Assembly (NCBI GenBank): GCA_009772935.1
Contig: WOUR01000016.1
Coordinates: 62,001 to 126,000, forward strand
From: Rhodospirillaceae bacterium
GTDB taxonomy: Bacteria; Pseudomonadota; Alphaproteobacteria; Reyranellales; Reyranellaceae
Direction: 5' to 3'
DNA: 64,000 bases
The notes beneath the pieces are model-generated. The model was not told where the DNA came from and did not search any database. It saw nothing but the letters and a program-made list of their open reading frames with translations. Positions within the stretch are counted from its first letter, which is position 1, and every line of letters begins with the position of its first letter. The translations under genes and the position numbers were made by a program. Positions 45,427 through 51,209 of this stretch are shown piece after piece.

Positions 45427-47413
<1,987 letters not shown>

Positions 47414-47541
47414 TGGACAGGGCGACCCTAGAGCGCCGGACCTTCGATCTCAAGCGCGCGTTCGCGAACTGTCGCGTGTGTTCCGCATTTCCGTAACCAC
47501 CCCTCTCTAAGCCTTGACCAACAAGAGTGGGGGAGTAGCCG

Positions 47542-48901: not shown

Positions 48902-50095
48902 TCAGACCACGGCCGCCTGGCGCATCTCCGCGATCTCGGCGTCGGAATAGCCGGCTTCCTTCAGCACCTCGTCGGTGTGCTGGCCCAGCGTCGCCGGCGG
49001 TCGGTCGATCGAGCCGCCGCCATGTTCGAGGCGGAAACCGGAGCCCACGACCTTGATGGGCCCATGCTCGGTCTCGACGGTCTGCAGCACGGTGCGATGC
49101 TTGAAAAGGTCGAGCTGCGCGGTCTCGGGGATGCTGTGGACGCGACCGGCCGGCACGTCGGCCTTGGCGAAGCGCTCGATCCAGGTACCTGAATCCTCGG
49201 TCTTCATCGCCCCTTCCACGATCTCGTGGAGCGCGGTGTTGTTGGCGATGCGCGTGCCCCAGTCGACGAAGCGCGAATCTTCCAGCGCCTCCTCGCGGCC
49301 CAGCACCTTCATCAGACGCTTGAACTGCGGGTCGGTCATGACGGCCAGCACGATCCAGCCGTCGCGGGTCTTGAAGAGATTGCCCGTGGGCTTGCGCGTC
49401 ACCGACAGGTTCGCGGCCTGGCCGTGGACCCGGCCGGTCATCATGTGCTCGGTGAACTGCTGTGCGAGATAGCCCATTACGGCGTCGATCATGGCGACGT
49501 CGACGAGTTGGCCCTTGCCGGTGTGGGTACGCTGGTACAGCGCCGAGGCGATGCCCAGAGCGGCGGTGGCGCCCGACATCACGTCGGCGCCGGCGAAGCC
49601 CACGCGCGTCGGGCCGTTGTTCTCGAAGCCGGTGATCGACATCAGGCCCGACATCGCCTGGATCATGCCGTCGAACGCCGCCGTCTTGGACTCAGGCCCG
49701 ACCTGGCCGAAACCCGACACGGCGCAATAGATCAGCCGGGGATTGATCTGCTTCAGCGTCTCGTAGCCGATGCCGAGCTTGTCCATCACGCCGGGGCGGA
49801 AATTCTCGACGACCACGTCGGCCGTCTCGACCAGTCGCTTCACGACCTCGATCGCCTTGGGCTGCTTCAGGTCGAGCGTGATCGACCGCTTGTTGCCGTT
49901 CACCGCGACCCAGGGCGCCGCGAGGCCCCGCTTCTCCCAGTCGTTGGACCGGGTGCCGAAGCGCATGTCGTCGCCTTCGCGCGACTCGATCTTGACCACG
50001 TCCGCCCCGAGCAGGGCGAGCTGGTAGGAGCTGTAGGGCCCCGCCAGCACGCGGGTGAAATCGACGACCTTTACGCCCGTGAACGGCTTGCTCAT
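48902..50095 (-). CDS. Class III (CaiB/BaiF) CoA-transferase
   Basis: 397 residues. Family motifs: VVDFTRVLAGPYSSYQLALLGADVVKIESREGDDMR at the N-terminus, FRPGVMDKLGIGYE, and the catalytic Asp region FAGADVMSGATAALGIASALYQR (nucleophile Asp about residue 170). It moves CoA between acids via an enzyme-bound anhydride. It starts only 7 nt after the stop of the GrdB-like selenoprotein gene and is probably co-transcribed with it, so it may act on that reaction's product or substrate (inference). Confidence 0.93.
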   Translation of the reverse strand: MSKPFTGVKVVDFTRVLAGPYSSYQLALLGADVVKIESREGDDMRFGTRSNDWEKRGLAAPWVAVNGNKRSITLDLKQPKAIEVVKRLVETADVVVENFRPGVMDKLGIGYETLKQINPRLIYCAVSGFGQVGPESKTAAFDGMIQAMSGLMSITGFENNGPTRVGFAGADVMSGATAALGIASALYQRTHTGKGQLVDVAMIDAVMGYLAQQFTEHMMTGRVHGQAANLSVTRKPTGNLFKTRDGWIVLAVMTDPQFKRLMKVLGREEALEDSRFVDWGTRIANNTALHEIVEGAMKTEDSGTWIERFAKADVPAGRVHSIPETAQLDLFKHRTVLQTVETEHGPIKVVGSGFRLEHGGGSIDRPPATLGQHTDEVLKEAGYSDAEIAEMRQAAVV

Positions 50096-50102
50096 GTCAC
50101 TC

Positions 50103-51029
50103 CTACGCCACGCCCGCCTGCTTGCGCTGGCTGAGCGCCACCTGCTTCACCTTGTCGAATTCGGCCCGCCGCTTGGCGACCTCTTCGGGCGGCATGCGCT
50201 CGATATTGTTGTAGTCGTTCTTCCAGTCCCCGTCCTCGGTCCAGCGCAGCGGCGACTGAACCGTCGTGCGCGGGCCGATGGCGCTCTCCAGCACCTTCAA
50301 CGCCAGATCGAGCGTGAAGCGCTGGGTGTCGGGCTCGTGCGGCTTGCCGCAGGAATTGCCCAGCGGGAAATCGCTGAACAGGAAGCGGGGCACGCCCACC
50401 CATTCGACGATGTCCTTTGCCGCCCCCATCACCACGGTGGGGATGCCGTTCCGTTCGAGGTATCGTGCGACCAGACTCACGGTCTGGTGACAGACGGGTC
50501 ATGTAGGGACGAGCAGCGCGGCATCGACCTGGTCCTGACGGCAGCGAGCCAGGATCTCCGGCGCATCGGTCTCCAGCGTCACGCGCTGGCTGCGGTTGGT
50601 CGGCGCCCCATGGAACCGGGTCGCAAGCTTGAATCGGCCCTGGCTGGCGAACTCGCGCATCAGCGGCAGCGGGAACCAGGTGTTGCTGTCCTTCGCCGTC
50701 GTGTGCTTGCGGTCGTAGCCGATATGGGAGATGCGGGTATCGTGATCCTGGGCGGTGTCGCCCGAATAGACCGAATAGAATTTGGCGGCGGCGTTATAGA
50801 GCGCGCCGGGCCCCTGATCGCCCTTGTCCGGCTGGTACGGCGCCGCGGTCGAGATCAGCGCGACCGTGCTGTCCTTCAGCGGCTTCTTCAGCGGCGTGAA
50901 CGGCGCGTCGGTGTAATGTGCCCAGCGATAGGGATTGTCATAGCCCAGCGCGAGATAGTACTCGCGCGTGCGGCGCATGTATTCGAGCGGCGCGTCGAAT
51001 TCCGGCGCGAAATCTGTCGTGTCGACCAT
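50103..51029 (-). CDS. GrdB-like reductase, probable selenoprotein (in-frame UGA = Sec177)
   Basis: 308 residues when the TGA at 50499-50501 is read as selenocysteine. The two halves are in the same frame: LDAALLVPT, then U177-PVC180-HQTVSLVARYLERNGIPTVVMG. UxxC is the redox motif of selenoprotein B of glycine/sarcosine/betaine/D-proline reductases, and the flanks (DQVDAALLVPT, GIPTVV) match that family's style. Directly after the UGA on the minus strand lies ACCAGAC-CGTGA-GTCTGGT, a 7-bp perfect stem with a G in the second loop position, 10 nt downstream, as expected of a bacterial SECIS. The start is ATG 51029. Homologues with Cys instead of Sec exist in this family. Translation needs SelA, B, C and D elsewhere in the genome. 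Confidence 0.85.
50470..50501 (-). promoter_or_regulatory. Candidate bacterial SECIS element with its UGA
   Basis: The UGA codon (50499-50501) is followed, after 10 nt, by a perfect 7-bp stem (ACCAGAC, 50482-50488, with GTCTGGT, 50470-50476) and a 5-nt loop CGTGA. The apical loop begins 17 nt after the UGA and holds G in its second position, within the usual bSECIS limits. It lies inside the coding sequence, as in other bacterial selenoprotein genes. Confidence 0.7.
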
Positions 51030-51209
51030 AGTTGAAAACTGAACCCGCCTTTGCCCCAAGTCAAATTCGCAGGGCGGCTGCCTCCTCCCGAGGTTCTCGT
51101 GCCAGAGCAAGGGCGAACCTGACCCCGTTGTAACCCGCCGGCCATAGTGCCGCCCAACTCCCTCGCGCTATATATGAAGCGAGTTCGGACAGGCTGGGGA
51201 GCGCATCGC

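Follow-up and report, generated by a model that had tools for sequence, protein, structure and literature searches.

A probable PrdB/GrdB-related selenoprotein gene next to a class III CoA-transferase gene in an alphaproteobacterium

The stretch of DNA analysed here (the window, 64,000 nt) comes from a draft genome of 6.01 Mb (G000; 124 contigs, 98.45% complete). On its minus strand, two open reading frames at 50103-50480 and 50499-51110 lie in a common frame and are separated only by the TGA at 50501-50499. The upstream frame opens with TTG and has an internal ATG at 51029, and translation from this ATG through the TGA to the TAG at 50105-50103 yields a protein of 308 residues containing the segment LVPT-U-PVCHQ. 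We assign the gene to 50103-51029, with the UGA codon for residue 177, a predicted selenocysteine (Sec), at 50499-50501 and the codon for Cys180, its putative partner in the U-P-V-C motif, at 50490-50492. The initial annotation had described two adjacent frames broken only by a UGA within this motif; its coordinates, single frame and motif all hold on read-through translation, and the strand, which it had left unstated, is the minus strand. Seven nucleotides past the stop of this gene begins a class III CoA-transferase gene on the same strand (48902-50095; PF02515, 391 bits against 23.3). A promoter and terminator scan gave no promoter and three terminator-like sites, against 1.6 expected.

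We scanned genomes for homologs, confirmed 176 relatives and retained the best 80 GTDB loci for all counts at this level. The nearest named loci among these 80 belong to Reyranella, the top one with 98% protein identity, and all 25 genomes of the genus that were searched, G000 included, have at least one family member. Sec forms occur in the cultured R. massiliensis 521 (L042), R. soli (L038) and R. aquatilis (L022). The codon at the Sec position is TGA in 59 of the 80 loci and TGC or TGT in the remaining 21. In the alignment, the UGA column coincides with the UGA of PrdB from both Peptoclostridium acidaminophilum and Ligilactobacillus salivarius, and Cys180 is invariant across a 39-row protein alignment. 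Selection on the two sides of the codon appears similar, with median dN/dS of 0.096 before the UGA and 0.100 after it in comparisons with 20 Sec homologs picked from the 59.

In a quick tree, which has many long branches, a Cys clade (L060, L062, L064 and L071-L073) is nested within the Sec clade, and ten Sec/Cys changes are needed, five of them forced by starred branches. Two of these Cys forms (L062 and L064) are 86-87% identical to the window protein and adjoin a CoA-transferase 97% identical to that of the window, suggesting from sequence that a Sec allele and a Cys allele may have swapped places at a single locus. Retention of the same operon partner extends to L071, L072 and L073, which also lie inside the Sec clade. 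In three genomes (G001, G012 and G024) the copy closest to the window gene has no stop and other copies contain TGA. Cys homologs also occur on plasmids of Roseomonas and Haematobacter, at 63% and 61% identity. A candidate for TAG-coded Sec in G095 was ruled out, as the TAG aligns with Tyr and the Sec position there is occupied by Cys.

A stem-loop directly 3′ of the UGA, with a G in its apical loop, is a feature of bacterial selenoprotein genes (PMC1088965). The initial annotation had pointed to a perfect 7-bp hairpin 10 nt past the UGA with G at the second loop position, and such a hairpin is indeed present at 50488-50470 on the minus strand (ACCAGAC-CGUGA-GUCUGGU), with its 5′ arm at 50488-50482, a 5-nt loop at 50481-50477 and its 3′ arm at 50476-50470. 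Its folding energy is ordinary (z = −0.74, −0.68 and −0.47 at three lengths, where 50, 55 and 57 of 200 shuffled sequences folded as well or better), and we dropped free energy as support for the element. Rfam likewise returned no SECIS match at the hairpin, the only hit there being a chance ALIL match of 10.7 bits.

Conservation of the hairpin was examined in distinct 63-nt regions from loci of more than 60% identity, comprising 44 Sec and 23 Cys regions (21 of the latter from the scan and two from plasmids). All seven pairs form in 38 of the 44 Sec regions and six of seven in the other six, whereas no Cys region forms seven pairs and only one of the 23 forms six. At the third-codon positions 17, 20, 23, 26 and 29 nt past the first base of the UGA, the 44 Sec regions show no variation, and at positions 20, 23, 26 and 29 the commonest letter in the Cys regions reaches at most 70%. 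When four paralogs were added to give 48 Sec rows, changes on both sides were found in four of the seven pairs, and for four of five measures no shuffle out of 500 scored as high, whereas for the fifth nine did. One varying pair (C-G to U-A or G-C) changes in six rows, and the remaining three are supported by one or two rows each, from paralogs. The Cys set resembled its own shuffles, of which 103 to 157 of 500 scored as high. It is the conservation among Sec regions, and not the folding energy, that argues against a chance hairpin.

The initial annotation had suggested looking for the genes of Sec synthesis and insertion. Profile searches of G000 found selA (565 bits), selB (355 bits) and selD (288 bits), tRNA-Sec (selC) was detected at 71.5 bits and also called by ARAGORN, and a split formate dehydrogenase alpha gene (fdn) has an in-frame UGA of its own. 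The expectation was borne out for selA, selC and selD but only partly for selB, which is frameshifted as assembled: compared with a relative (L115), the gene (contig C61, L011:12491-14338) is 50 nt short just past the P-loop and runs out of frame. The same part of selB is intact in all 19 relatives' loci inspected, and a search of G000 for a second SelB found none. The gap may be an assembly error or a true loss of recent date, such that decoding of the UGA in the source strain itself is not certain. Nevertheless, the case for Sec in the lineage is independent of the state of selB in that strain.

Among 385 genomes of the class, selA exceeded the cut-off in 35 of the 38 with a TGA-bearing copy of the family, in none of the 13 with only TGA-free copies and in 21 of the 334 without a family match, with TGA in distant copies scored by the search tool's count instead of column by column. 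The three genomes with a TGA-bearing copy by this count and no selA match are G036 (77% complete), G338 (95%; in-frame TGA in the member on C107) and G288 (100%; in-frame TGA in the member on C98). Two members of 30-31% identity (G311 C12:70405-71004 and G218 C147:41558-42160) each have one TGA and lie about 220 nt from a divergently oriented selA, and one family match (G322 C3:825545-826264) holds two in-frame TGA codons.

The initial annotation had also assigned the protein to the GrdB/PrdB family, and profile alignment upholds this kinship at a distance. PF07355 matches residues 43-176 at 25.5 bits (gathering cut-off 22). The PrdB model TIGR04483 scores 84.3 bits over residues 42-249 against an equivalog cut-off of 300, and GrdB-type models score 38-44 bits (TIGR01918, 41.3 against 65.45); the PrdB model is therefore the nearest, although every NCBIfam cut-off is missed. 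With PrdB of D-proline reductase the window protein shares its best NCBIfam match, the UGA column and the Sec-x-x-Cys motif, but it is only 28% identical to the two aligned PrdB proteins, has a CoA-transferase as neighbor and comes from a genome in which no PrdA-type family was found. With GrdB of glycine/betaine/sarcosine reductase it shares the PF07355 match up to the residue before Sec, but its 308 residues match only the last part of the 431-435-position GrdB models. PrdB and GrdB act with pyruvoyl proteins, and GrdB also with GrdA. In G000, the best score for PF09338 (the PrdA/GrdE family) was 12.4 bits against a cut-off of 22.2, and the best for PF04723 (the GrdA family) was 12.0 bits, again below cut-off, although PF09338 matched prdA in both control records and PF04723 matched its control in the clostridial record. 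Because both families fall below cut-off, we do not regard the protein as a member of PrdB or GrdB complexes, though the same Sec-Cys chemistry may apply.

The PF07355 profile itself (GRDB, 347 positions) ends at residue 176 of the window protein, and within one position of Sec in Peptoclostridium PrdB, a sign that the proteins behind the profile stop at the Sec position. In the predicted structure (mean pLDDT 77.7, pTM 0.79), Sec177 is flanked by a strand and a helix. A PDB sequence search gave no hits at E 1, and none of 1211 Foldseek matches reached E ≤ 0.001. The chains recovered by VIA-align were LacI/periplasmic-binding-like and Rossmann-like; the best had Z 9.1 at an rmsd of 10.8 over 165 residues, and many others scored close to it, so that the model points only to a general alpha/beta fold.

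That a class III CoA-transferase gene follows, and not the rest of a clostridial grd operon, had been noted in the initial annotation, and this neighbor recurs widely. A CoA-transferase of 49-97% identity lies on the same strand within 300 nt in 69 of the best 80 loci (54 of 59 Sec loci and 15 of 21 Cys loci), and two of the 11 loci without it are at a contig end. Class-wide, with flanks of up to 1.5 kb, a CoA-transferase is present in 13 of 29 loci, 12 times downstream on the same strand. The listed neighbors of the two plasmid-borne Cys forms include no CoA-transferase. The CoA-transferase in the window reaches no NCBIfam cut-off, its best match being succinate--glutarate CoA-transferase at 284 of 750 bits. 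Other neighbors in 24 regions are acyl-CoA dehydrogenase (five), luciferase-like monooxygenase (four) and DUF2817 (three), but we set these aside as partners, since most of their occurrences come from three genomes belonging to one family.

G000 carries five family members with one TGA each: the window gene, a tandem pair on C62 and single copies on C14 and C48. Together with formate dehydrogenase they make six genes with an in-frame UGA. A covariance model built on the hairpin and its surroundings found exactly these five places in G000 at E ≤ 1, but it had been trained on all five, and the search shows only that no further close copy turned up among 150 scored candidates. The divergence of the five suggests that they act on different substrates. 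Of the tandem members (L097:9749-11393), the second (C62b) reads U-P-L-D and has Asp in place of the resolving Cys; a TctC receptor gene is nearby. Some 3.3 kb downstream of the C14 paralog lies a gene for a class III CoA-transferase, and the interval contains those for a TcuA-like FAD enzyme and a TctC receptor. The C48 paralog (L016:1870-1932) is the most divergent, with the motif U-P-A-C and altered stem letters (CGCGCGC/GCGCGCT region) whose pairing is largely kept.

If the UGA were a true stop throughout the lineage, the downstream part would be a pseudogene or a separate gene. All that speaks for this is that table 11 has TGA as a stop; the UGA in 59 of the best 80 loci, the low dN/dS past it, the confinement of the hairpin to Sec forms and the association with selA all run counter to such a reading, which we consider extremely improbable. 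That the protein is instead the Sec-bearing component of D-proline reductase or of glycine/betaine/sarcosine reductase would agree with its PF07355 score and with the column shared with PrdB. It is nonetheless very unlikely given that no NCBIfam cut-off is reached and that both partner families stay below cut-off where the controls are positive. A further alternative accepts Sec in the lineage but supposes that the source strain has lost decoding, through a real deletion in selB, and now makes a 176-residue fragment. The 50-nt gap and frameshift, set against 19 intact relatives and no second SelB, are what such a loss would leave, but selA, selC, selD and six in-frame-UGA genes remain in the genome, and a draft of 124 contigs may contain an assembly error; we view loss in this strain as a possibility to be taken seriously, if not the one we favor.

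The protein might also serve in thiol or peroxide redox reactions in general, with a thioredoxin- or peroxiredoxin-like role, the CoA-transferase being a mere neighbor. A U-x-x-C motif between strand and helix would suit this role, as would a weak Thioredoxin_3 match (E 0.14, below cut-off) and the loci among the best 80 that have no CoA-transferase. However, the linkage is held where CoA-transferase identity has fallen to about 50%, in Sec and Cys lineages alike, and one genome has five divergent paralogs, so that a general redox role seems to us rather unlikely. The reading we prefer, and judge probable as a whole, is that of a Sec enzyme related to PrdB and GrdB that shares a pathway with the CoA-transferase. 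The two split frames are best seen as one selenoprotein gene because homologs, hairpin, selection and machinery agree, and the initial proposal that the in-frame UGA marks a selenoprotein gene is thereby sustained by the sel genes, the conserved UGA and hairpin, and Cys homologs that mostly track selA.

Under the preferred reading, ribosomes would decode the UGA at 50501-50499 as Sec by means of SelB, tRNA-Sec and the downstream hairpin, in the source strain only if its selB is intact. The product would be a stand-alone relative of PrdB and GrdB with a U-P-V-C site, at which, by analogy with those proteins, the selenolate of residue 177 may attack the substrate and Cys180 may resolve the intermediate. 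Unlike D-proline and glycine reductase, it would work with no recognizable pyruvoyl partner and no GrdA. The conserved linkage suggests that it serves in one pathway with the downstream CoA-transferase, probably carrying out a reductive step in carboxylic-acid degradation, in which the acid is either carried as a CoA ester or turned into one. Lineages lacking selA would retain a Cys enzyme, and many also the CoA-transferase. The suggestion in the initial annotation that a different reduction may be catalyzed is likely to hold, given the CoA-transferase context and the missing grd/prd partner families. More tentatively, and with some doubt on our part, the two genes might form a selenium-dependent catabolic module of a chemistry not yet described, in which a PrdB-like enzyme lacks the pyruvoyl subunit and its substrate is handled by the partner CoA-transferase; genomes of the lineage have as many as five Sec copies of the family.

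The protein is of a known kind, but differs in its conserved CoA-transferase neighbor, which appears new, and in lacking the classical subunits. GrdB and D-proline reductase are among the UxxC families named in a 2026 review, which describes selenoproteins as rarely retained by aerobic bacteria (PMC13188914). Marine metagenomes contain a large 'PrdB' group with UxxC, numbering 42 Sec forms in the Sargasso Sea data (PMC1088965) and 235 Sec and 110 Cys forms in the GOS data (PMC2398784). It resembles the window protein in motif, pfam07355 kinship and the occurrence of both Sec and Cys forms, and differs in that the available portions of these two papers give it no operon partner. This group may include the subfamily of the window gene, in which case the conserved CoA-transferase offers a handle on a group abundant in the sea. 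The Cys proteins of Roseomonas and Haematobacter are already annotated as 'glycine/sarcosine/betaine reductase selenoprotein B family protein', but they have TGC for Sec, lack the full hairpin and have other neighbors.

Among the Alphaproteobacteria, Betaproteobacteria and Pseudomonadales known at that time to decode Sec, a 2006 survey found no selenoprotein other than formate dehydrogenase (fdhA; PMC1794560), and a 2025 paper reports three known selenoprotein genes in the alphaproteobacterium Afipia carboxidovorans (PMC12013277). With six in-frame-UGA genes, five of them from one family, G000 would count as 'selenoprotein-rich', a label that calls for six genes or more (PMC5029168). In the literature searched, mostly open-access, we found no account of the CoA-transferase link, the five-copy expansion or Reyranella selenoproteins, and the pairing with a CoA-transferase hints at an undescribed selenium-dependent metabolic step in the relatives of this bacterium. 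Elsewhere in the window, at 45427-47423 on the minus strand, a TPP riboswitch (69.7 bits, 47294-47423) lies just 5′ of a 623-residue open reading frame that, by eye only, is a candidate thiC.
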